Of a DNA stretch of 64,000 nt, positions 17,160 to 59,994 are shown piece after piece. This stretch comes from Heloderma charlesbogerti (taxonomy: Eukaryota; Chordata; Lepidosauria; Squamata; Helodermatidae): positions 372,001-436,000 of the forward strand of contig JANEZZ010000302.1 of assembly GCA_026122225.1 (NCBI GenBank), in the 5' to 3' direction. Every line of letters starts with the position of its first letter. Position 1 is the stretch's first letter. The translations under genes were made by a program, and so were the position numbers. The notes beneath the pieces are model-generated. The model was not told where the DNA came from and ran no database searches. It was given only the letters and a program-made list of their open reading frames with translations.

Positions 17160-17536
17160 CATAAAGGGCAGGGGGAGGGACAAATCTCAGGCCCATGGAC
17201 CAAATCCCCCCTTTCTTGGCCAAGGTCTCCTACTCTCCTTCCCCCCGACCACCAATTATTTGGTGGTTTCCCAGCCTTCCTTGGCAGGGTTCCTTTTCCA
17301 ATCTCAGTTGTTGAAATGCCTCTCCTAAGGTTTACTTACTGACACTAAGAGCTTTAAGCTACAAGATGCAGGTTTGTTTGTTTGTTTGTTTGTTTTATAT
17401 AATGTTGGCCCTACTCACTCTGGCTTTGGCCCCACCCCCTTTTGCATTTGGCTCTGCCGACCACTGAAATGCAGCCCCCGAGAGGTTCTCTGGGATTGAA
17501 TTCGGCCCTCAGGCTGAAAGAGGTTCTGCACCCCTG
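17160..17536 (+). mobile_element. hAT-type element of the 1878/4503 family, left end eroded
   Basis: It shares GTTGAAATGCCTCTCCTAAG, GGCCCCACCCCCTTTTGC and the right end GGTTCTGCACCCCTG with the copies at 1878 and 4503. A left terminus with matching TSD could not be fixed. A (GTTT)n run at 17371-17394 interrupts it. Confidence 0.55.
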
Positions 17537-23899: not shown

Positions 23900-24510
23900 G
23901 TACATTCCCCCATACAGATTTGAAATGTAGAATGTAAGCTCCTGGGGGGGCAGGGAGACATGTGTCTTGCTCATATAGCTCTGTAACACATCACATGCAT
24001 TTTGCCTGTGCCGTACAAGCCACCAACAATCGAAACGTCCTGTTTGTCTGTCCTCTTCAGCTTCTTCTTACAAAAGTCCTTCCCAGATTAAAAAAGAGAG
24101 AGAGAGAAGAGGCTCGAGTGTTGTCAGAAATTAAATCTGATTCTTCAATCTTTGGCTTCATTTTTATGAAGCGGCCATTAGAAATCTAAACAGGGTGGCA
24201 GTACCAGCGAGCCCAATCAGATCTTTGCTCTAGTCCTTTCTTTGTTGTTTGTGCCCTTCCCCATCTGTGGAAACCTATATTTAATCCCTAATTGTTTCTC
24301 AGTCATAGTTATTATGGCACTGCAAGGAGGATTTGCATTGCAAACGCCATGGGGTTTATTTTATTTTTATTTTATTTTATCTGGCCCACAGGGAGGTGTA
24401 AGCTTTCTGTCTGGTGTCCTTTAGCATCTGTCTCATTTCCATATTTTATAAGCTCTTGTCTCCAAGAAAGGGTGGGCCATTTTGCCCCTTCACTGGCCGC
24501 CAGCTAATAG
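23900..24510. other. no recognisable feature
   Basis: Unassigned non-coding sequence, with a TTTTA-rich stretch near 24357-24380. Confidence 0.5.
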
Positions 24511-24512
24511 CA

Positions 24513-25654
24513 TTTTCCACTGCATCATGGAGAAAGCAAGAGAATTCCAGAAAAACGTCTATTTCTGCTTTATTGACTACGCTAAAGCCTTTGATTGTGT
24601 GGATCACAACAAACTGTGGCAAATTCTGAAAGTGATGGGAGTACCAGACCACCTTACCTGTCTCCTGAGAAACCTGTACAAGGGTCAAGAAGCAACAGTA
24701 AGAACCAGAGATGGAACAACCGATTGGTTCAAAATTGGGAAAGGAGTACGACAAGGCTGCATATTGTCACCCTGCTTATTTAACTTATATGCAGAGTACA
24801 TCATGAGAAATGCCGGGTTGGATGAATCAGAGGTCGGAATTAAGATTGCTGGGAGAATTATCAACAACCTCCGATATGCAGACGATACCACCCTAATGGC
24901 AGAAAGCGAAGAGGATCTCAAGAGCCTCTTGTTGAGGGTGAAAGAGGAGAGTGCAAAAGCTGGTTTGAAACTCAACATTAAAAAAACGAAGATCATGGCA
25001 TCTGGCCCCATCACTTCCTGGCATATAGAAGGGGAAGAAATGGAAGCAGTGACAGATTTTACTTTCTTGGGCTCCAAGATCACCGCAGATGGTGACTGTA
25101 GCCATGAAATTAAAAGACGCTTGCTCCTTGGGAGGAAAGCTATGGCAAACCTAGACAGCATAGTAAGAAGCAGAGACATCACCTTGCCGACAAAGGTCTG
25201 TCTAATCAAAGCTATGGTTTTCCCAGTAGTAATGTATGGCTGTGAGAGCTGGACTATAAGGAAGGCTGAGCGCCAAAGAATTGATGCTTTCGAACTGTGG
25301 TGTTGGAGAAGACTCTTACGAGTCCCCTGGACTGCAAGGAGGTCAAATCTGTCCATCCTAAAGGAAATCAACCCTGAGTGCTCATTGGAAGGACAGATAC
25401 TGAAGCTGAAGCTCCAATATTTTGGCCACCTAATGAGAAGCGAAAACTCCCTGGAAAAGACCCTGATGCTGGGAAAGACTGAAAGCAAAAGGAGAAGGGG
25501 ACGGCAGAGGATGAGATGGCTAGATAGCATCACGGATGCAATGAATATGAACTTGAGCACGCTCCGGGAGAGAGCGCAGGACAGGAAGGCCTGGTGTGCT
25601 ATGGTCCATGGGGTCACGAAGAGTCGGACATGACTGAACGACTGAACAACAACT
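24513..25654 (+). mobile_element. RTE-clade BovB LINE, 5' truncated, open RT frame
   Basis: This is a BovB retrotransposon copy cut at its 5' side inside the reverse transcriptase. It includes the 3' part of the single ORF and the short 3' UTR ending ACATGACTGAACGACTGAAC and AACAACAACTA. BovB inserts by target-primed reverse transcription using an APE-type endonuclease, missing here. The two other BovB copies in the window are both on the minus strand. Its intact frame and low divergence suggest a fairly recent insertion. Confidence 0.93.
24527..25633 (+). CDS. BovB reverse transcriptase, C-terminal 368 residues, uninterrupted
   Basis: The frame shown starts at a Met that aligns with an internal Met of the full protein, so it is a fragment and not a natural start; an open extension reaches 24482 in unrelated sequence. 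Visible motifs: YFCFIDYAKAFDCVD near residues 11-25, with the first catalytic Asp; VRQGCILSPCLFNLY near 82-96; and LRYADDTTLMAE near 121-132, with the YADD catalytic box. Next comes the RTE thumb/connector region (SWTIRKAERQRIDAFELWCW, then LLRVPWTARR) and the characteristic BovB ending HGVTKSRT before TGA. No stop or frameshift is present, unlike the minus-strand copies. The endonuclease and RT finger domains (about 600 residues) are absent, so the piece cannot act alone. Family assignment is firm; activity is not implied. Confidence 0.9.
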   Translation: MEKAREFQKNVYFCFIDYAKAFDCVDHNKLWQILKVMGVPDHLTCLLRNLYKGQEATVRTRDGTTDWFKIGKGVRQGCILSPCLFNLYAEYIMRNAGLDESEVGIKIAGRIINNLRYADDTTLMAESEEDLKSLLLRVKEESAKAGLKLNIKKTKIMASGPITSWHIEGEEMEAVTDFTFLGSKITADGDCSHEIKRRLLLGRKAMANLDSIVRSRDITLPTKVCLIKAMVFPVVMYGCESWTIRKAERQRIDAFELWCWRRLLRVPWTARRSNLSILKEINPECSLEGQILKLKLQYFGHLMRSENSLEKTLMLGKTESKRRRGRQRMRWLDSITDAMNMNLSTLRERAQDRKAWCAMVHGVTKSRT

Positions 25655-26388: not shown

Positions 26389-26440
26389 AGAATATAAGAA
26401 CATAAGAAGAGCCATGCTAGATCAGGTCAAGGGTCCATCT
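26389..26440 (-). mobile_element. CR1-type LINE 3' end, stub
   Basis: Only about 50 bp of the CR1 3' end (ATAAGAACATAAGAAGAGCC up to GGGTCCATCT) before the hAT element cuts it. The next CR1 piece at 26803 starts again from the terminal repeats, so the two are separate copies and not one split element. Confidence 0.7.
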
Positions 26441-26793
26441 TAGGGATGTCGGAGAATTTCTCCACGAATCTCCGGGAGGCCGAATGCCAACGCATTTGGC
26501 CCCCCGAAATTGGTGGGGAAACTCTCCGACACCCCCCGTCCCCCCCCCCGGATGGGACTTACCTCGTGCGAATGTCCCTCGCAGTGGCGGGTCCCAGCGG
26601 CAGTTCGGCGGTGGGGCAGCGGCGGCGGTGGCCAGTCTTCCAACTGGCTGCCGCCGCCGCCATTTCCAAGTAAAGTAAAAACAAACAAAAGTGATAGGCG
26701 GGGCACTCCCCCCCGGCCAGAATTTCGGTGGGGAGGGGCGGGGCGCCTCCCCACCTGCCAAGAATTTCGGGGGGAGAAACGGAGCGCCTCCCA
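26441..26793. mobile_element. chained-palindrome hAT-like element, hairpins deleted and right end lost
   Basis: The left end TAGGGATGTCGGAGAATTTC with the inner inverted repeat GCCGAATGCCAACGCATTTGGC is type A of the family. A splice-donor sequence on the minus strand (ACGAG|GTAAGTCC) lies near 26557-26566, and a minus-strand ATGGCGGCGGCGGCAGCC near 26668. After GTGATAGGC, the first half of a hairpin, the sequence jumps directly to the type B arm (GGGGAGGGGCGGGGCGCCTC). All hairpins are therefore missing. The B terminus and TSD are absent. Confidence 0.8.
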
Positions 26794-26802
26794 AGTACTG
26801 AA

Positions 26803-27036
26803 TGTAAGAACATAAAAGAGCTGTGCTGGATCAGACCAAAGGTCCATCTAGTCCAGTGTTCTGTTCATACAGTGGCTGACCAGCTGCCCACAGGAAACCT
26901 ACAAGTAGGACATGAATGCAACAGCACCCTCCTGCCCGTGTTCCCCAGCATCTGATGTACAAAGGAATACTGCCTCTGATACTGGGGATAGCATAGAGCC
27001 ATCAGAACTAGTAGCCATCAACAGCCTTCTCCTCCA
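26803..27036 (-). mobile_element. CR1-type LINE 3' end, abutting BovB
   Basis: Antisense 3' UTR from TGTAAGAACATAAAAGAGC to CAACAGCCTTCTCCTCCAG, where the BovB 3' end follows with no gap. The CR1 coding part does not reappear beyond the BovB, so either CR1 ended here or the junction lost sequence. Confidence 0.8.
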
Positions 27037-28250: not shown

Positions 28251-29084
28251 TCACATGCTGCTGAAGCCTAGCTTGTAGGATTTGGAGCATAACCTTGCTG
28301 GCATGTGAAATGAGCGCAATTGTATGGTAGTTGAACACTCTTTGGTGTTGCCCTTCTTTGGAATTGGAATGTAAACTGACCTTTTCCAGTCTTGTGGCCA
28401 TTGTTGAGTGTTCCAAATTTGTTGGCATATTGAGTGCAGCACTTTAACACCATCATCTTTTAGGATCTTAAATAGCTCAGCTGGAATACTGTTATCTCTG
28501 CCAGCTTTGTTGTTAGTAATGCTTCCTAAGGCCCACTTGACTTCACTCTCTAGGATGTCCGGCTCAAGTTCAGTGACCACACTATCATGGCTATCAGGGA
28601 TATTCAGATCTTTCCTGTATAGTTCTTCTGTGTATTCTTGCCACCTCTTCTTAACCTCATCTGCTTCTGTTAGGTCCCTGCCTTCTTTGTCCTTTATCAT
28701 GCCCATCTTTGCACACAACGTTCCCTTGAGATCTCCGATTTTCTTGAAGAGATCTCTAGTCTTTCCCATTCTATTGTTTTCCTTGATTTCTTTGCATTGT
28801 TCATTTAAGAAGGCCTTCTTGTCTCTCCTTGCTATTCTCTGGAACTCTGCATTCAGTTGGGTATATCTTCCCCTTTCTCCCTTGCTTTTCACTTCCTTTC
28901 TTTCCTCAGCTACTTGTAAAGCCTCATCAGACAGCCACTTGGCTTTCTTGCATTTCTTTTTCTTGGGGATGGATTGAGTTGCTGCCTCCTGAACAATGTT
29001 ACGGACCTCCGTGCATAGTTCCTCAGGCACTCTGTCTATCAGGTCTAATCCCTTAAATCTATTCCTCACCTCCACTGTATTCAT
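28251..29084 (-). pseudogene. BovB linker and RT fingers, open for 277 codons
   Basis: Encodes the region between endonuclease and RT palm. A basic helix-rich stretch (KKKKCKKAKWLSDEALQVAE) is followed by the RT finger block with GSITNNKAGRDNSIPAELFK, matching the RTE pattern N.KA.G.D.IP.E..K, then WKRSVYIPIPKKGN, the conserved I..PKKG. The frame goes off at about residue 255, where ECSTTIQLRSF departs from the usual NYRTIALI; a frameshift near 28325 moves the correct reading into another frame. Confidence 0.85.
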
Positions 29085-29591
29085 AAGGGATATGATTTAG
29101 TTCATACCTGAATGGTTTAGTGGTTTTCCCTACATTCTTCAATTTAAGCTGAAATTTTGCAACAAGAAGCTCATGATTTGAGCCACAGTCAGCTCCAGGT
29201 CTTGTTTTTACTGACTGTATAGAGCTTCTCCATCTTTGGCTGCAAAGGACATAATCAATCTGATTTCGATATTGTCCATCTGGTGATGTCTATGTGTAGA
29301 GTCGCCTCTTGTGCTGTGTTGCTATGATCAGCATGTTCTCTTGGCAAAACTCTATTAGCCTTTGTCCTGCTTCATTTTGTACACCAAGGCCATGCTTGCC
29401 TGTTATCCCGGTGATTTCTTGACTTCCTACTTTAGTATTCCAATGCCCTATGATGAAAAGGACATTTTTTTTGGTGTTAGTTCTAGAAGGTGTTGTAGGT
29501 CTTCATAGAACTGATCAAGCTCAGCTTCTTCGGCCTCAGTGGTTGGGGCATAGACTTGAATTACTGTGATGTTGAATGGTTTGCCTTGGAT

Positions 29592-33261: not shown

Positions 33262-33923
33262 TAGGGGTGTACGAAGCCCCGCTTACCTGGCTCCGCCGGG
33301 CTCCGCAGGTGGAGGGAGGCGCTCCATCCCTCCCACCGGAATCCTCGCTGGCTCCGGCCGCCCGCAGCCGGACATCCGGCTGCTGGGCAGCCCTGCAGGG
33401 ATGCAAATGGCGGCTGTCATAGCCGCCGTCATTTGCATCCCTGCAGTGAGCCGTGATAGGCTACCTAAATATTTACGTAGCCTATCACGGCAGGGGAGAA
33501 AAAAACCCAGCATACGCAAATGGCGGTAGCTGCTGCCATTTGCGTATGCTGGGGTTCCCCCCCCCGCCATGATAGGCTACTAAATACTTACATAGTCTAT
33601 CATGGCCTCCACAGGGACACAAATGGCATCCCTGCGTTAGCCGTGATAGGCTACTTAAGTATTTATGTAGCCTATCACGGCTGAAGAAGGAGGAAGCGAA
33701 TGGCGGCCACAGGATGGCCGCCATTCGCACAGCAGCGCAGACGGGAGCAGGCAAGTGCTCCATTTTGCACACCTTTCGTGGGGTGAGGGCGGCGAGCACT
33801 TCGTCCTGCGTGCCTTTCATGGTTGGGGGGGTAGGGGCTTAGTTCCGCAACGGTTTTTGGGGGGCCGAATGCACTGGCAGTCAGCCTCACCAAGATCCGT
33901 CATGGAATTCTGTAACATCCCGA
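33262..33923 (-). mobile_element. chained-palindrome hAT-like element, complete (662 bp)
   Basis: Flanked on both sides by GTCATTAG, a perfect 8-bp TSD. The left end (type B) is TAGGGGTGTACGAAGCCCC; the right end (type A) is GGAATTCTGTAACATCCCGA. Palindromes in order: 33398-33444 (ATGCAAATGGCGGC and its complement), 33449-33491 (TACCTAAATATTTACGTA centre), 33510-33551, 33566-33605, 33638-33682, 33686-33735. A minus-strand splice donor CCAG|GTAAGC lies at 33281-33290. There is no transposase, so it depends on one from elsewhere. The strand is given with type A as the start. Confidence 0.9.
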
Positions 33924-33961: not shown

Positions 33962-34079
33962 TTGCCAGCCATCTGAGGCAGCCTCCTACAGTGGAAAGTC
34001 CCAGAGGAAGATAGTCCTATCCACTGCCTTGTTGGCACCAACAGTAACGGTCTGTTTCATATCAGGTACAGCCAGAGGA
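33962..34079 (+). repeat. 118-bp direct repeat, left copy
   Basis: Starts TTGCCAGCCATCTGAGGC and ends GTACAGCCAGAGGA. It matches 34496-34613 with roughly nine differences and no gaps, and ends exactly where the partial hAT-like element begins. Confidence 0.9.
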
Positions 34080-34495
34080 ATTTTGATTCAGAGGAGAATC
34101 AAAAAGGGACGCAAATAGCACCCGCTACGCTATTTGCGATCCCCTTTATTTTCGCCGTCATAGTCTACGTAAATATTTACGTAGATTAAGAGGGCAAAAA
34201 TAAGGAACGCAAATGGCGGCGACCATAGCCGCCGCCATTTGCGTACGCAGTTGTTGTTGTTTTTTTTACCCAGAGCCCTCCGCGGCCGGAAATCCGGCTG
34301 CAGACGGCTCTGGCCTGGCTGGGCCTGGCTGGCTGCTCCACAGAGCTGCCACGGACCACAGCCGGCCACGGAGGATTCCGGGGGGAGGAACGGAGTGCCT
34401 CCTCCCCTAGTGAGGATTCCGGGGGGAGGGACGGAACACCTTCCCCCACCATCAACATAATCTGTGAACAGGTAAGTGACTTTTGTACATCCCTA
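34080..34495 (+). mobile_element. chained-palindrome hAT-like element, type A end missing
   Basis: The right end (type B) is complete: CAG|GTAAGTGACTTTTGTACATCCCTA, with the splice donor at 34471-34477. The left end begins abruptly inside a hairpin (TTTTGATTC, loop, GAATCAAAA at 34082-34105). Palindromes follow: ACGCAAATAGC with GCTATTTGCG, TACGTAAATATTTACGTA at 34161-34180, and ACGCAAATGGCGGC with GCCGCCATTTGCGT at 34207-34247. The 118-bp direct repeats abut both edges, so the missing end was not lost by simple deletion. Confidence 0.87.
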
Positions 34496-34613
34496 TTGGC
34501 AGCCCTCTGAGGCATCCTCCTACAGTGGAAAGTCTCAAAGGAAGATAGTCCTATCAACTGCCTTGTTGGCACCAACAGTAACGGTCTGTTTCATACCAGG
34601 TACAGCCAGGGGA
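34496..34613 (+). repeat. 118-bp direct repeat, right copy
   Basis: Starts TTGGCAGCCCTCTGAGGC directly after the element's terminal CCCTA. Its first eight bases would be the right TSD of a normal hAT insertion. Confidence 0.9.
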
Positions 34614-42185: not shown

Positions 42186-43118
42186 TGGTTGTTCTTGTTG
42201 TTCTTGTTGTTCAGTCATTAAGTCATGTCCAGCTCTTCGTGACCCCATGGACCATAGCATGCCAGGCCTTCCTGTCCTCCGCTCTCTCCCGGAGTGTGCT
42301 CAAGTTCATATTCATTGCATCGGTGATGCTATCTAGCCATCTCATCCTCTGCTGCCCCCTTCTCCTTTTGCCTTCAGTCTTTCCCAGCATCAGGGGCTTT
42401 TCCAGTGAGTTTTCTCTTCGCGTTAAGGAGGCGAAAATATTTGAGCTACAGCTTCAGTATCTGTCCTTCCAATGAGCACTCAGGGTTGATTTCCTTTAGG
42501 ATGGACTGATTTGACCTCCTTGCAGTCCAGGGGACTCGTAAGAGTCTTCTCCAGCACCACAGTTGGAAAGCATCGATTCTTCGGCACTCAGCCTTCCTTA
42601 TAGTCCAGCTCTCACAGCCATACGTTGCTACTGGGAAAACCATAGCTTTGATTAGACGGACCTTTGTCGGCAAGGTGATGTCTCTGCTTCTTACTATGCT
42701 GTCTAGGTTTGCCATAGCTTTCCTCCCAAGGAGCAAGCGTCTTTTAATTTCATGGCTACAGTCACCGTCTGCAGTGATCTTGGAGCCCAAGAAAATAAAA
42801 TCTGTCACTGCTTCCATTTCTTCCCCTTCTATATGCCAGGAAGTGATGGGGCCAGATGCCATGATCTTCGTTTTTTTAATGTTGAGTTTCAAACCAGCTT
42901 TTGCACTCTCCACTTTCACCCTCAACAAGAGGCTCTTTAGGTCCTCTTCACTTTCTGCCATTAGGGTGGCATCATCTGCGTATCTGAGGTTGTTGATAAT
43001 TCTCCCGGCAATCTTAAGTCCGACCTGTGATTCATCCTGACATTTCTCATGATGTACTCTGCATACAAGTTAAATAAGCAGGGCAACAATATACTGCCTT
43101 GTCGTACTCCTTTCCCAG
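42186..43118 (-). mobile_element. RTE BovB LINE, 5' truncated, third copy
   Basis: Minus-strand copy of the BovB 3' end, cut inside the RT just upstream of the VRQGC region. It retains the YADD neighbourhood, thumb and C-terminal region with small deletions (GATTCATCCTGACATTTC lacks six or more bases against the other copies). The 3' edge carries an extended GTTGTTCTTGTTGTTC tract. Confidence 0.92.
42446..42961 (-). pseudogene. BovB RT C-terminal fragment
   Basis: Open for 171 codons: MAESEEDLKSLLLRVKVESA, MASGPITSWHIEGEEMEAV, MANLDSIVRSRDITLPTKV, SWTIRKAECRRIDAFQLWCW. It starts just after the YADD box. It differs from the 24527 reading at only a few residues, but the reading is lost before the BovB C-terminus (KSRT) is reached. 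Confidence 0.87.
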
Positions 43119-46801: not shown

Positions 46802-47407
46802 TAGGGATGTCAGAGAATTTCGCCACGAATCTCGGGGAGGCCGAAAGCCAGCGCATTCGGCCCCCCGAAATCAGTGGCGAAATGGTCTACCCCCCCCCCG
46901 CCCCCCGGGATGGGACTTACCTTGGGCGAATCCTCCTGGCGGCGGCGGCTCCGGCGGCGGTTCGGCAGCGGTTCGGCGGCAGCGGCTGCGGCAGGCGGTC
47001 TTCCGACTGGCTGCCGCCGCCGCCATTTCCAGTAAAAAAAAAAACTGATAGGCTACGTAAAGATTTACGTAGCCTATCACGGCTAGATTTTTAAAAAATA
47101 CCGTGACAGGCTACGTAAATGTTTACGTAGCCTATCACGGCTGAGTAAAAAAAAAAAAAAAACTGCGTGTACGGAAATGGCGGCGCCCATGGGTGCCACC
47201 ATTTGCGTTCCTTATTTTGGCACGTCTAGTTTACGTAAACATTTACATAGACTACGGCGAAAATAAGGGGAACGCAAATAGCGTAGCGTCTACGCTATTT
47301 GTGTTCCCCTTATTTTCGCCGTAGTCTACGTAAATGTTTACATAGACTACGCACGGTTTGTTTTTTTTTACTCAGCCGTGATAGGCTATGTAAACATTTA
47401 TGCAGAC
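46802..47407 (+). mobile_element. chained-palindrome hAT-like element, type B end missing
   Basis: The left end (type A) TAGGGATGTCAGAGAATTTC includes GCCGAAAGCCAGCGCATTCGGC. A minus-strand splice donor CAAG|GTAAGTCC lies at 46914-46924, preceded on that strand by ATGGCGGCGGCGGCAGCC. Hairpins: 47045-47083, 47099-47143 (ACGTAAATGTTTACGT), 47164-47210 (AAATGGCGG...CCATTTGCG), and a long inverted pair over about 47230-47350 whose arms include AATAAGGGGAACGCAAATAG. The element breaks off inside the next hairpin. The left neighbour ATCAGGCA has no partner. Confidence 0.87.
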
Positions 47408-47409
47408 TC

Positions 47410-47934: not shown

Positions 47935-48133
47935 AATATAGGAACATAGGAAGCTGCCTTATACTGAGTCAGACCATTGGCCCATCTAGCCCAGTATTGT
48001 CAACACTGACTGGCAGCAGCTCTCCAGGGTTTCAGGCAGGATTCTTTCCTTGCCCTACCTGGAGAAGCCAGGGATCGAACCTGGGACCTTCTGCATGCCA
48101 AGTGTGTGCTCTATCACACTGAGCTATTGCCCC
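47935..48133 (-). mobile_element. tRNA-headed SINE with CR1-like tail, best copy
   Basis: Read on the minus strand it begins with a nearly complete tRNA-like sequence: GGGGCAATAGCTCAGTGTGA (A box), then AGGTTCGATCCCTGG-type B box. A middle segment (CCTGAAACCCTGGAGAGCTG, CTGCCAGTCAGTGTTGACAA) follows, and a 3' part CTAGATGGGCCAATGGTCTG with TATGTTCCTAT, similar to the CR1 3' end here (GGATC...TATGTTCTTAT). It would be transcribed by RNA polymerase III. It is a SINE and not a functional tRNA gene because of the long tail and sister copies at 38945 and 43865. Confidence 0.85.
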
Positions 48134-55040: not shown

Positions 55041-55599
55041 TAAGGATGGACGAAAGTCCCTTTCCTGGTCCCGCAGCTTGCTTCGTGGTGGGGGGAGGCG
55101 CTTCGGTTCTCCCCCCGAAGTTCTTGGCGGGGGGGAGGCGCCTCGCCCCTCCTGACCAAAATTCAGGCCAGGGGGGAGGCGCCCCATCCCTCGCTTCCGA
55201 AATTCAGGCCGGGGGTGAGCGCCCCATCTCCCCGGCCGTGAAATAAAAAAAGTAAATTGGGAAAAAAAAATGTGATAGGCTACGTAACGATTTACGTAGC
55301 CTATCACGGCTAGATTTTCAAAGTCAGCCATGATAGGCTACGTAAATCGTTACGTAGCCTATCACGTGTTTTTTTTTTACTTTACTTTACTTTGTAATGG
55401 CGGCGGTGGCAGCTGGTCGGAAGACCGGCCGCCGCCCCCGCCCCCACGCCGCCGGGACCCGCCACCGAGAGGGAAATTCAAAGGTGGTAAGTCCCATCCC
55501 GGGGGGGGGGGCGGAGAATTCCACCACCAATTTCGGGGGGCCGAATGCGTTGGCATTCGGCCTCCCGGAGATTCGTGGAGAAATTCTCCGCCATCCCTA
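55041..55599 (-). mobile_element. chained-palindrome hAT-like element, complete short form (559 bp)
   Basis: ATAGCAGA flanks both ends, a perfect 8-bp TSD. The left end is type B (TAAGGATGGACGAAAGTC), the right end type A (GAAATTCTCCGCCATCCCTA). Only two hairpins remain: 55272-55309 (ACGTAACGATTTACGT) and 55330-55366 (ACGTAAATCGTTACGT). Each is a palindrome and each is the inverse of the other, giving a palindrome of palindromes. The type A arm has ATGGCGGCGGTGGCAGCTGG at 55397 and a plus-strand donor GGTG|GTAAGTCC at 55484-55494. The type B donor is mutated. Confidence 0.92.
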
Positions 55600-55604
55600 A
55601 TAGC

Positions 55605-55910
55605 AGAAGGAGGAAGGGAAGGGAAGAGAAGGGAAGCAGGGGAAGTCCACCGGCTCAGCTGAGAGACCCGATACATTCAGTGCCTCCTGTCCTTGAAGTC
55701 GTTATAAGAACTTTGTGACAAAGAATGACTGCCTCTTTGCTCCCCCACCCTCCCCCGCCCCTGCCCCCGCTACCAATCTCTTTTCCTTTCATGATGTGTG
55801 TTTTATAGCGTAACCCTGAGGGCAGGAACAGTCTTGTTGCTGATCTCTATTTGTCTGAAGTGCGGGGTAAACCCCCCACTTTAAATACAGAAATAAATAG
55901 ACCTACTCTC
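55605..55910. other. no recognisable feature
   Basis: Unassigned; purine-rich at its left edge, with a GAAGGGAAGAGAAGGGAAG stretch. Confidence 0.5.
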
Positions 55911-55914
55911 TTTT

Positions 55915-56110
55915 TCTCTCTTTTTCAAGGAGACCAAATAAGCTAATAACCAACTTCTCATCTTGTGGTATTGAATTACGTGAATTATTCATTGCGATTC
56001 ATAATGAACAAGCTGATGCTTTAGGTTCTGGGCAACCTGCAAGCATGTCTTCCAGGATTCCCAAACTCATCTTTTACACTCTTACAAGAGGCTATTGTTT
56101 CTACTTTTAA
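55915..56110. promoter_or_regulatory. candidate conserved non-coding element
   Basis: Repeat-free text with AATAAGCTAATAACC, GAATTACGTGAATTATTCAT and GCGATTCATAATGAAC. Enhancer-like texture; not tested. Confidence 0.2.
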
Positions 56111-56114
56111 AACC

Positions 56115-56640
56115 TAACAGACCATTACCATAATCAGATGAGACTCAATCCATTGCAATTACCATATCTTCTGCTAGCTCCCTCACCCACTATTAATAAA
56201 ATCCACTCTACAAATTTCTGGCTGCAGATTCTGCCTTGCTGGGTTGGATTGGGTCACCTGCAAAGGCACAAGCCTTGTGCTGTTCTGGACATATGCCGAT
56301 GGACTAGAATTCCTGGCAAAATACTTATCATTTAAGTAGTCAGTTCTTTGGAAGAAGAGTTCTTTTGAAATTAGTTGATATCCAAGTAAATAAGCATAGG
56401 ATTGGGATAAAAGGAAAGGGGGAACCCTGTCCTATATATGCTGGACCTTGACTTGAGTAAAGGACTTCATGAGCGTTTTACCACCACATATAAAAACACC
56501 GATACACAACACTTAACTAAGTCAAGTGCCATTCCTCTCTCAAGGACACAAACACACCAAGGCTGCAATTATGTGCTCACTTAATAGCACACAAACAGTC
56601 CCACTGCAACCCGTGGGACTTCCCTGGGGCCAACCCAAGA
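56115..56640. other. no recognisable feature
   Basis: Unassigned non-coding sequence up to the TSD of the next element. Confidence 0.5.
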
Positions 56641-56652
56641 CAGTATGCTGCC

Positions 56653-57581
56653 TAGGGATGTCAGAGAATTCCGCCACGGATCTCGGTGAGGCCGAATGCC
56701 AGTGCATTCGGCCCCCCGAAATCTGTGGTGGAATGGCCTGCCACCCCCCTGCCCCCCCGCGGATTCCCCCCGGGACGAGACTTACCTGGGGCAGATATTC
56801 CGGGTGGCGGCGGCTGCGGTGGCAGCTGTGGCGGCTGTGGCTGCGGCGGCTGGTCTTATGACTGGCTGCCACCGCAGCCATTTGCAGTCTTGTCATTTGG
56901 GTTTTGTTTTTGTTTTTTATGCCACCGTCATTTGCAGTCTGGAGAATTTTTTTTTTTAAACAGAGATGTGATAGGCTACGTAAAGACTTAGGTAGCCTAT
57001 CACATCCCGGTTTAAAAAAAAAAAGAAAACGCGTATGCAAATGGCGGCGGCTACGGCCACCGCCATTTGCGTTCCTTATTTTTGGCCGTCTTAGTCTACG
57101 TAACTACATAGTTTGCGTCCCTTTTTGATTCACCGTTTTAGCCTACATAAATATTTATCTAGGCTAAAACGGCGAATCAAAAAGGGATGCAAATATCGCC
57201 CACTACGCTATTCGCGTTCCTCTTTATTTTCGCCGTAATAGTTTACGTAAATATTTACGTAGACTAAGACGGCCAAAAATAAGGAACGCAAATGGCGGCA
57301 GCCATAGCCGCCGCCATTTGCGTAAGCATTTTTGTTTGTTTGTTTGTTTGTTTTTTACCCAGAGCCCTCCGCGGCTGGAAATCCGGCTGCGGACGGCCCT
57401 GGCCTGGGCCAGGCCGGCCGCTCCGCTGAGCCGCCGCAGAGCACAGCCAGCCATCAAGGATTCCAGGGGGGAGGACCGGATTGCCTCCCCCCCCATCAAG
57501 GATTCCAGGGGGAGGGATGGAACGCCTCCCCCCACCATGAACATAATCCGCGGAAAGGTAAGTGACTTTCATACATCCCTA
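56653..57581 (+). mobile_element. chained-palindrome hAT-like element, complete (929 bp)
   Basis: ATGCTGCC is repeated exactly on both sides (8-bp TSD). The left end is type A (TAGGGATGTCAGAGAATTCC, with the small inverted repeat GCCGAATGCCAGTGCATTCGGC), the right end type B (CTTTCATACATCCCTA). Hairpins: 56967-57003; 57030-57073 (GCAAATGGCGG...CCGCCATTTGC); 57112-57188, whose arms include TTTTTGATTCACCGTTTTAG; a partial one at 57189-57218; 57229-57275; and 57283-57324. Outward splice donors: minus CCAG|GTAAGTCT at 56780-56789 and plus AAAG|GTAAGTGA at 57554-57565. On the minus strand an ATG at about 56881 opens a frame that runs to the CAG of the donor. No transposase. Confidence 0.94.
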
Positions 57582-57589
57582 ATGCTGCC

Positions 57590-59018
57590 CAAGCATAGTG
57601 GATAAGGAAGTCCCGTCCTCACTACCACCACACACACACACCCTTTCCACATACATTCCATATACTTTCAACATACACCCGGACTGGCTGGCAAATCTTA
57701 CTTCAGCGTTGTTGGTGATGAGTCAGTGTCCTGCTAGCTTTGAGCAGTGGCAAGTAGAAGGTAGGTCTGGATCTACTGGTGATATGCAGTAGATTCACAT
57801 GGGGTTCTGACTCCATTAGCAGGAAAGAAATGACTTCCCCTGCCCTAAATTATACTGCTGAAATAAAGGAAGTTAGGGGGTAACATGTACTGAATATCTG
57901 TGTAGAAGGACTACAGGCTCCATTCAGTTCTGGTACTCAAAACAAATCCCTGGATTCAGAATTCTTTAATTCTAGCTGTATGCCTTGTGCATCAAGGTCT
58001 TGATGGTGGATCTCAGAGTTCTCGAACGAAAAAGAAAAAACAACAACTATTAGATTCTGCAAGCCAGGCATCTGGCTTAAAGGATGCATGGCAGGCTACT
58101 CGACACACACACCTCTGCCCTCCATCATCTCAGCCCACTCACTACCTTCAGCATCCACCACATCAAGTAGCTGACACAGGTTACCCAATGGTAGGGCCAG
58201 TGCTGGCTCACTTCAAGTAAACAAGCATAGGATTGGTCTGCAAGCCACTTTGTACAGTCAGCAGAATCCAATGATAGAGCTCTTCCTTCAACTGTATCAC
58301 CTGGTTGCCGATGGGTGTGCGTGTGTGTGTTCGTGCGTGCATGCGCACACAAAGGGGGGGGGAGTTGTATGCACTTACAAACCCCAGAGAGAAGCCTCTC
58401 TCTGACATGCTAGATTTCTATATGCAGGCAAGATTCCCTCACCCTTGGGAAACAAACAGTCAAACCTCTACCTTCAGCCAAGAGTACTATAATCCAGAAA
58501 AAAAAAAGTTTTACCACTGCTTTTGCTGACAGTATAAACTGGTCCATTGATTCTTTGCTGTCTTTGCAGGAAAGGGCACCTGAATTCCATAATACAATAA
58601 TCCTTCTCCATTTTGCCACACACAGGCTTCTTAGCCAAGGATTTTCGTATTTTTAAAAGGTGGATTTTTGAGGCATTTCCTTTTAAAGGAAAAAAAAAAA
58701 AAGCCCTGATACAAACATAACTGAAAAAGAAAACCTCAGGCTAAAACCTTGAGGGAACCAAAGGGGTGGGTGGGAACTGCCTTGTGTGTTTTATGAGAGA
58801 TTAGGGCAAACTTAGTTTTGTCTTAAGCCACTAAAGACTCATAAAAGCCCCAATGAAGATGGTGAGCCTCCGAAAAACCTCACAGGGCTTAGGAAAGAAA
58901 AGTCAATTTAAAGTCAGACAAAAGCCTTGCCTAAAGAAGTTAGCAGGGGTTTCGCACAAGTTGAAAGAAGTGGCAAAGGATAGATTAGAGACAGTTACAA
59001 AACTTTGAAGCAGAGGTC
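57590..59018. other. mostly unassigned; (GT)n near 58313-58348
   Basis: No gene or transposon recognised in about 1.4 kb. A short (CA)n at about 57630-57642 and an imperfect (GT)n with TGCG interruptions at 58313-58348. Confidence 0.55.
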
Positions 59019-59027
59019 ATGAGGGAT

Positions 59028-59986
59028 TAGGGATGTACAAAAGTCACTTACCTTTTCGCGGATGTGATTCGCGGTGGGGGGGAGACGCTCCGTCCCTCCC
59101 CCCGGAATCCTCGACAGGGGGAGGCAATCCAGTCCTCCCCCCTAGAATCCTGCCCAGCTGGCTCTGCTCCGCGGCGGCTCCGTGGAGCAGCCGGCCAGGG
59201 CTGGCCGCAGCCGGAGTTCCGGCCATGGACTGGCTGCTGCGGACGCAAATGGTGGCCGCCATAGCAGCCACCATTTGTGTCCAGCCAGGCTGCTGTGATA
59301 GGCTACGTAGGTATTTACGTAGCCTATCATGGCAGGCAAAAAAAAAAAACCAGCGTATGCACATGGCGGCGGCTACAGCAGCTGCCATTTGCGTTCTCTA
59401 TTTTTCGCCGTTTTAGCCTACGTAAATATTTACGTGGGCTATTACGGTGAAAAAAAAGGGGAATGCAAATAGCGTAGTGGACGCTATTTGTGTTCCTTTT
59501 TTTTACGCCGTTTTAGCCTACGTAAATATTTATGTAAGCTATTACAGCAAAAAAAAGGAACGCAAATAGTGCCCACTACGTTATTTGCATTCCCCCTTTT
59601 TTTCACTGTAATAGCCTACATAAATATTTCCGTAGGCTAAAACAGTGAAAAATTGGGAATGCAAATGGCGGCTGCCATAGCCGCCGCCATTTGCGTACAC
59701 TGGTGTTTGTTTGTTTTTTGGCTTGCTGTGATAGGCTACGTAAATACTTATGTAGCCTATCACGGCAAACACCAGGACGCAAATGGTGGCCGCAGCAGCC
59801 GGTCAAAAGACCAGCAGCCGCTGGAGCCGCTGCCGCTGGAACATCTGCCCCAGACAAGCTTCGTCCTGGGGGGGAATCCGCGGGGGGGCGGGAGGTGGGA
59901 GGCCATTCCGCCACAGATTTCGGGGGGCTGAATGCCAGTGCATTCGGCCTCACTGAAATCCGTGGTGGAATTCTCCTCCATCCCTA
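59028..59986 (-). mobile_element. chained-palindrome hAT-like element, complete long form (959 bp)
   Basis: TGAGGGAT is repeated exactly on both sides (8-bp TSD). The left end is type B (TAGGGATGTACAAAAGTCAC), the right end type A (TTCTCCTCCATCCCTA), so it is inverted relative to the element at 56653. About ten hairpins alternate between two types. ATGG type: near 59240-59280, 59353-59395, 59459-59500, 59556-59598, 59655-59697. TACGTAAATATTTACGTA type: near 59289-59331, 59405-59450, 59506-59550, 59600-59650, 59720-59765. The type B donor AAAAG|GTAAGTGA (minus) is intact at 59045-59055; the type A donor is lost (CCCCAGACAAGC). No coding. Confidence 0.94.
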
Positions 59987-59994
59987 TGAGGGAT

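Follow-up and report, generated by a model that had tools for sequence, protein, structure and literature searches.

Foldback transposons are known from the P and Mutator types (PMC3169594). In this study, we analysed a 64,000-nucleotide stretch of the genome of Heloderma charlesbogerti (GenBank assembly GCA_026122225.1, contig JANEZZ010000302.1, positions 372,001 to 436,000 of the forward strand), hereafter the window, and the repeat family that it carries, which is probably a non-autonomous hAT-type family with a foldback interior of alternating ~50-bp half-units, X. Maize Ac/Ds, a hAT system, has the ends C/TAGGGATGAAA and TTTCATCCCTA and resembles this family in its 8-bp target-site duplication (TSD), its large non-autonomous classes and the unrelated filler between short common ends; however, Ac/Ds is a plant family, only the first 8 end bases match, and the available part of its account describes no foldback array (PMC3260210). 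Mar of Drosophila is a hAT-type miniature inverted-repeat transposable element (MITE) with 11-bp terminal inverted repeats (TIRs) and 8-bp TSDs, but it has the Buster-type TSD pattern nnnTAnnn, whereas TA stood at positions 4-5 in 0/12 TSDs here, and the available Mar text contains neither 'palindrom' nor 'secondary structure' (PMC3517528). Among the foldback elements, Galileo (P superfamily) likewise has inverted repeats extended by internal tandem repeats and recruited inner sequence, but it has a P-type transposase and long TIRs, whereas the present family has unlike tips (A and B) and alternating ~50-bp units (PMC4168063). The Tm1 Mutator/Foldback elements of root-knot nematodes share with it two unlike tips (A1/A2) that flank composite inverted repeats, a variable number of an inner motif and MITE-like members, but differ in their 9-bp TSD, Mutator-type transposase and ~14-bp repeat motif in place of alternating palindromes (PMC3169594). 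Bacterial interspersed mosaic elements (BIMEs, made of repetitive extragenic palindromic or REP sequences) are also palindromic units of regular spacing and alternating orientation that have been proposed as non-autonomous mobile elements, but they are bacterial and linked to a RAYT (IS200/IS605-type) transposase (PMC2817692). Our literature search, which covered titles, abstract openings and few subscription papers, gave no hAT family of this build among the matches listed.

An earlier note on this DNA had reported four complete copies of a hAT-like MITE built from a chain of alternating palindromes. The borders given for these four copies (c33, c55, c56 and c59) proved correct to the nucleotide, and each copy has a perfect 8-bp TSD (GTCATTAG, ATAGCAGA, ATGCTGCC and TGAGGGAT, respectively). 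We searched the window for TAGGGATG/CATCCCTA pairs 300-1200 bp apart with exact TSDs, allowing 1 mismatch per end, and found only these four, while five letter-shuffled controls gave 0 pairs each. Self-comparison of the window added three broken copies (c26, c34 and c46), giving seven copies that span ~4.5 kb, or 7% of the window (summed lengths, with two borders approximate); an eighth interval, 17368-17399, was rejected as a GTTT simple repeat. From A to B, the element consists of the A end, the array, a GC-rich stretch and the B end. The A end is TAGGGATGTACRAAAGTCACTTACC followed, by eye, by one to about four GC-rich ~41-bp units, and the B end is approximately TAGGGATGNCRGAGAATTC with a palindrome immediately inside. 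The motif ACTTACCT, read inwards, was located at position 19-20 in 5/5 window A ends (0-2 mismatches) and at 108-128 in 4/6 window B ends (0-1 mismatch), being absent at the B ends of c33 and c59. The array contains dyad axes of two kinds: T1, of the CAAATGGCGGC type but also occurring as a variant, b (AAATAGCG), and T2, TACGTAAAT|ATTTACGTA (the bar marking the axis), with the subtypes a (TGATAGGC-) and b (TAGYCT-). The features of the family in the window are as follows.

59028-59986, + strand: copy c59, complete, A end on the left, five T2 axes, mirror axis at ~59528; TSD TGAGGGAT on both sides.
59020-59027 (left copy) and 59987-59994 (right copy): TSD of c59.
59262-59794, + strand: array of ten half-units in c59, in the order a a b1 b2 b3 | b3 b2 b1 a a.
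56653-57581, - strand: copy c56, complete, B end on the left and A end on the right; TSD ATGCTGCC.
55041-55599, + strand: copy c55, complete and short, with a palindromic spacer between two T2a hairpins; TSD ATAGCAGA.
33262-33923, + strand: copy c33, complete, with a different order of separate hairpins in a row; TSD GTCATTAG.
46802-47408, - strand: copy c46, broken, B end kept and A end lost.
~34080-34495, - strand: copy c34, broken, A end on the right kept and B end lost; left border approximate.
26441-~26800, - strand: copy c26, broken, B end on the left kept and A end lost; right border approximate.
55130-55226, + strand: tandem GC-rich ~41-bp units of the A end in c55; likewise 57451-57538 in c56 and 26696-26792 in c26 (2.1-2.4 copies in each of the three by Tandem Repeats Finder, TRF).

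The near-perfect palindromes of the earlier note are real: the core TACGTAAATATTTACGTA (at most 3 mismatches) occurred 17 times in the window and the core CGCAAATGGCGGC (at most 2 mismatches) 24 times, against maxima of 0 and 3 in 100 shuffles. Their arrangement is less regular than the alternating chain described there. Alternation was visible, but it was not strict, since T2a hairpins are adjacent in c55 and c46 and one T2 was lost in c56. The number of hairpins, given as 2 to about 10, was indeed variable, but it goes down to no complete hairpin in c26, where a portion of a single T2a arm is all that is left of the array. The order in c56 is that of c59 minus the first T1-T2 and with the loss of one T2; this T2 is present in L002, which has an equal order (names in L refer to sampled stretches and their copies). 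The c46-like order recurred in the two-ended relatives L021:3144-4116 and L021:5018-5961, and the arms of c55 (63 nt) are 89% complementary. T1 arms (e.g. window 57287-57322) contain GCCGCCAT and T2 arms (e.g. 57244-57261) contain TTACGTA, which we take to resemble a YY1 site and a bZIP site, respectively.

To compare the two kinds of palindrome, we cut the arrays of six window copies, all but the array-less c26, at the T1 and T2 axes, with borders set by hand. This yielded 28 half-units, which were read in the T1-to-T2 direction, with incomplete half-units and T2-T2 junctions excluded. The results showed that all 28 half-units align along their length. Some a-type half-units have ~10-20 extra bases, mostly poly-T. 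The mean identity was 0.729 for half-units with a common T1 axis (8 pairs) and 0.738 for those with a common T2 axis (11 pairs), while other pairs within an element (58) reached 0.647 and pairs between elements (301) 0.651; shuffled partners gave a mean of 0.527 and a maximum of 0.686. Because all half-units align, with mean identities above the shuffled mean, one half-unit X lies behind both palindrome types, and the T1 and T2 palindromes are the two ends of this ~50-bp half-unit, which alternates in direction as X X' X X'.

The order of the half-units was then compared with a mirror image. In c59, the mirror pairing about the third T2 axis (T2.3) ranked 1 of 945 possible pairings, with a mean identity of 0.816 (0.679 for all pairings), and it was still the best of 105 when the central pair was removed. 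The self-complementarity of the c59 array was 693, which 0/300 random unit orders reached (mean 422, maximum 610). An automatic half-unit cut was applied to eight copies, of which four had contiguous half-units and were testable (c59, L002, L021b and L024a). The mirror pairing ranked first at one axis in all four (1/105, 1/15, 1/15 and 1/15) and at 0/6 of the other axes tested. The axis differs by subfamily, being T2b in c59 and L002 and T1b in L021b and L024a. Folded as single-stranded DNA, c59 and L021a each formed one long hairpin, with z of -26.5 and -29.1. These findings indicate that the interior of the larger copies, as seen in the testable ones, is one mirror-symmetric foldback about one axis; the two palindrome types of the chain are two axes of a single half-unit. 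Long inverted repeats composed of repeated units, as in foldback elements, are present, while inverted repeats reaching the tips are not, since A and B differ beyond ~8-10 bp in 13/16 copies; the two copies with A at both ends do have inverted repeats to the tips.

The ends and TSDs were assessed in a larger set of 16 two-ended copies (4 from the window and 12 sampled), with one-ended and broken copies excluded. These copies are 559-973 bp long, with 2 to 6 T2 axes found per copy and a G+C content, over the whole copy, of 49-61%; the inner region of MITEs is usually A+T-rich according to the available part of one account (PMC3942097). An 8-bp TSD with at most 1 mismatch was found in 12/16 copies (9 exact, 3 with 1 mismatch), and 29/32 ends start with TAGGG. 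The starts of hAT TIRs follow the YARNG rule. The Ac-type TSD pattern nTnnnnAn was represented by T at position 2 in 5/12 and A at position 7 in 5/12; a preference for it, seen at 8/14 positions in the seven window copies (P 0.018), was dropped after only 10/24 were found in the 12 TSD-flanked copies. None of 10 frames of 120-187 aa overlapping the window copies matched a Pfam family at E 0.01. The copies are thus short, without a Pfam-matching frame and of high copy number, as MITEs are, and the hAT-like MITE assignment of the earlier note is upheld: the data support a non-autonomous, MITE-like hAT-type family with TAGGGATG ends. The fixed order of A and B, also claimed there, was present in 14/16 copies, but L020b and L20_23 have A on both sides. 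L20_23 has the highest mirror score of the 16 (452) and L020b a score of 196. Each is either a foldback with its ends included or the product of recombination between inverted neighbours; because their TSDs are missing, a recombinant origin or change after insertion is favoured. The B tip of L024a is a hybrid that starts with ~15 A-end bases. A separate element at L019:3212-3777 has the same ends (TAGGGATGGC...CACATCCCTA), an exact TSD (GCTGCCAT) and CAGGTGAGT near one end, with no T1/T2 array, and is probably another family moved by a similar transposase.

We next measured the divergence of arms and copies. Within a subfamily, ~5-13% of non-CpG sites differed, and for this reason the family is not very recent. 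In the arm test, from which five unclassed hairpins were dropped, the two arms of T2a hairpins (n = 47) had an identity of 0.790 within and 0.802 between hairpins, and 4,854/5,000 shuffles reached the observed value; T2a hairpins show no sign of within-hairpin correction or pairing selection. For T2b (25 hairpins), the identity was 0.768 within and 0.727 between hairpins, reached by 123/5,000 shuffles, and by 0/2,000 for the middle eight bases. In the window set, the T2b middle carries a C/T difference common to both arms, and the small excess is taken as a subtype mark that may have been copied to both arms. A pooled test of all T2 arms (5/5000) was not used, as it mixes subtypes.

Whole arms were compared at shared non-CpG sites in three pairs of copies; these counts replaced mirror-arm divergences from local alignment (0.040-0.119 non-CpG), which favour the best-matching stretches. 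For L021a/L024b (198 sites), mirror arms differed at 16 and 19 sites, the same arm between copies at 33 and 25, and opposite arms at 35 and 31. The corresponding numbers for c59/L002 (164 sites) were 14 and 18, 29 and 22, and 19 and 32, and those for L021b/L024a (166 sites) were 20 and 23, 8 and 12, and 27 and 20. The counts for the first two pairs suggest that their arms were made or equalised after the masters had split, and those for the third suggest that the foldback predates the split of the masters. We read this pattern as repeated foldback events in masters, with no constant correction. An unlikely extension is a self-renewing foldback, in which hairpin-primed repair after hAT excision would let each mirror arm serve as template for the other in the germ line, either ahead of transposition or while it takes place. 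If true, this would give each new master fresh near-perfect arms and a movable axis. Mirror arms differed less than sister arms in two of the three copy pairs, and the third pair showed the opposite.

From the ends, the TSDs, the X X' array, the mirror order of the testable copies, the subfamily axes and the copy number, we infer the following course of events. The family would be moved in trans by a hAT transposase that recognises its TAGGGATG ends and duplicates 8 bp of the target. The array of each master would have arisen through inverted (foldback) duplication; the simplest route would be a template switch in which a polymerase, or the 3' end of a broken strand, crosses over to the other strand where it meets a short palindrome. 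The masters would then spread. After insertion, the copies would decay with little correction of single hairpins, and hairpins would be lost by deletion.

A transposase that could act in trans was sought in the same genome. The PF05699 profile gave 150 scored matches of 871 genome candidates, and 0/14 control genomes were positive. Several hAT transposase frames of 879-908 aa were free of stops (contigs C235, C1725, C356, C2157 and others), and these perhaps belong to a young family. The sequence CGTACATCCCTA, the 12-mer of the A end read outwards, was found in six 3' flanks of the hAT domain, at a distance of ~325-445 bp from it, exact in four and with 1 mismatch in two; these six flanks are alike by eye. 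It is at most a candidate end of the transposase element, as the single aligned pair was homologous over ~1.8 kb, well past the 12-mer.

Several results weigh against a hAT-type foldback family as set out above. The autonomous hAT with the same ends that the earlier note had proposed to look for in this genome was not found: no autonomous hAT with the family ends (TAGGGATGTACG...ACTTACC) was identified, and the six 3' flanks showed none of these ends at a border. No TSD was present in 4/16 copies (L002, L020b, L20_23 and L026d), both A-A' copies included, so that TSDs are kept in most copies but not in all. A scan for the best axis at every position, which counts in favour of the reading, gave scores of 94-452, and 16/16 copies exceeded the maximum of 12 letter shuffles (39-72), but these shuffles destroy the X X' periodicity and the scan alone is no proof of mirror order; the evidence for that order comes from the pairing and unit-order tests in four copies. 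The score was above 300 in 7/8 copies over 850 bp (c59, L002, L20_23, L021a, L021b, L024a and L024b) and in 0/8 shorter copies, whose axes are weak (94-198). Copy c56, with one T2 lost, scored 178 at its best axis, a T2b at ~57152. The best axis was off centre in L026a and L026e, and c33, the third of three copies covered by DNA folding, gave several hairpins side by side (z -18.6) and no single foldback. The foldback event is itself deduced, and recombination between inverted neighbours, which is possible because the family is clustered, could yield some mirror copies.

Other accounts of the array were weighed against the same data. The earlier note had attributed growth and shrinkage of the chain to replication slippage or template switching. 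Slippage between direct ~100-bp X X' repeats, as in a minisatellite, would agree with the 99-100-bp period that TRF found in c59 (up to 2.9 copies) and with the variation of T2 axis number among the 16 copies, but it predicts partners of the same orientation, and the best partners were mirror half-units of opposite orientation rather than direct neighbours. We consider it quite improbable for the array, although slippage could still act in the 41-bp units of the A end. Because the array is mirror-ordered, inverted duplication is preferred to direct-repeat slippage, and inverted template switching is the part of that earlier proposal that fits. The regularity of the array and its separability from the GC-rich ends might also be explained if a hAT element had captured a pre-existing palindromic satellite. 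This is very improbable, as all 17 T2 cores of the window (at most 3 mismatches) lie inside six of the seven copies and the window has no free-standing array.

Two further explanations invoke function. The palindromes might be kept because T2 arms are putative binding sites for transposase or host factors, more sites leading to better transposition; the BED domains of Hermes, as far as the available part of that account goes, bind subterminal repeats, of which two form a quasi-palindrome (PMC10368747), and by this analogy T2 arms are possible candidate binding sites. The T2a core TGATAGGCTAC (83 arms) differed by 0.069 between elements, against 0.246 for the A end (16 copies) and 0.299 for the B end (14 copies), but the core value is biased downwards by the choice of arms, which could differ from a 14-mer at no more than 3 positions. 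In addition, c55 has an exact TSD with only two T2 sites. We regard such selection as rather unlikely, though a tentative possibility. Selection of the hairpins for their RNA or DNA structure, for example as small-RNA precursors, is hardly probable at all: the predicted DNA folds are very stable and T2b shows a within-hairpin excess, which subtype structure may explain, but there was no compensation between the arms of the 47 T2a hairpins. A structured-RNA search of the window gave a single weak tRNA-like match (48060-48133, minus strand, 30.8 bits with a cut-off of 29), perhaps a tRNA-derived SINE (short interspersed element). The preferred reading is still the hAT-type foldback family.

To estimate the abundance of this family, we searched the whole assembly (2,302,168,690 bases in 3,246 contigs). 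The exact 25-bp A end occurred 25,721 times (12,868 + 12,853 by strand; reversed-pattern control 0), and the perfect 34-bp T2a palindrome had 4,933 sites (control 0). The exact A 25-mer is present in 4/16 two-ended copies, and this proportion together with the 25,721 exact A ends leads to ~1.0e5 copies. We also sampled 22 stretches of 10 kb from contig C1 (L001-L022), a sample that is not random for the genome. These 220 kb contained 11 matches covering 6,789 bases (3.1%), which were clustered (variance/mean 2.24, P 0.0009); the sample density corresponds to ~1.15e5 copies, and both estimates are rough. Four extra stretches were chosen beside clusters, so that the total of 260 kb is biased upwards; it contained 21 match intervals, with three queries added and the copy spanning L020/L023 counted twice. 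On contig C1, 35/60 exact A ends lay within 5.249-6.124 Mb, 13% of the contig. An exact-match search for other carriers found none in viral contigs or GTDB contigs, where the window's own records were possibly left out. At ~1e5 copies, an automatic repeat-library entry for this species probably exists somewhere, and the news lies in the structure of the family rather than in the existence of the repeat. A hAT-type foldback at ~1e5 copies, making up ~3% of the sampled sequence of a 2.3-Gb genome, would offer many natural replicates of inverted duplication. Its different subfamily axes open the origin, shifting and decay of palindromes in a vertebrate genome to study by counting, as well as the question of whether such arrays cause local rearrangement.

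The surroundings of two broken copies were also recorded. A 118-bp host sequence (93% identical) stands on both sides of c34, at 33962-34079 and 34496-34613, and its second copy begins exactly at the A-end border; the arrangement resembles the outcome of an exchange between alleles with and without the element. Copy c26 is surrounded by an interspersed repeat (26390-26440 and 26800-26990), presumably CR1-like, which occurs at six further places in the window. Fragments of long interspersed element open reading frames (ORFs) lie at 24452-25633, 28251-29096 and 42446-43069, with RVT_1 in the first and third, and we take them to be of the RTE/BovB kind. For 20 other window ORFs, the sole Pfam match was RVT_1, in two. 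Given what is known of RTE/BovB, the matches of the reverse transcriptase ORF at 24452-25633 suggest, short of proof, a squamate source: the best 120 of 8,000 scored matches include Podarcis muralis (84% identity), Varanus komodoensis (80%) and yak (79%), and cattle sequences are homologous as well.

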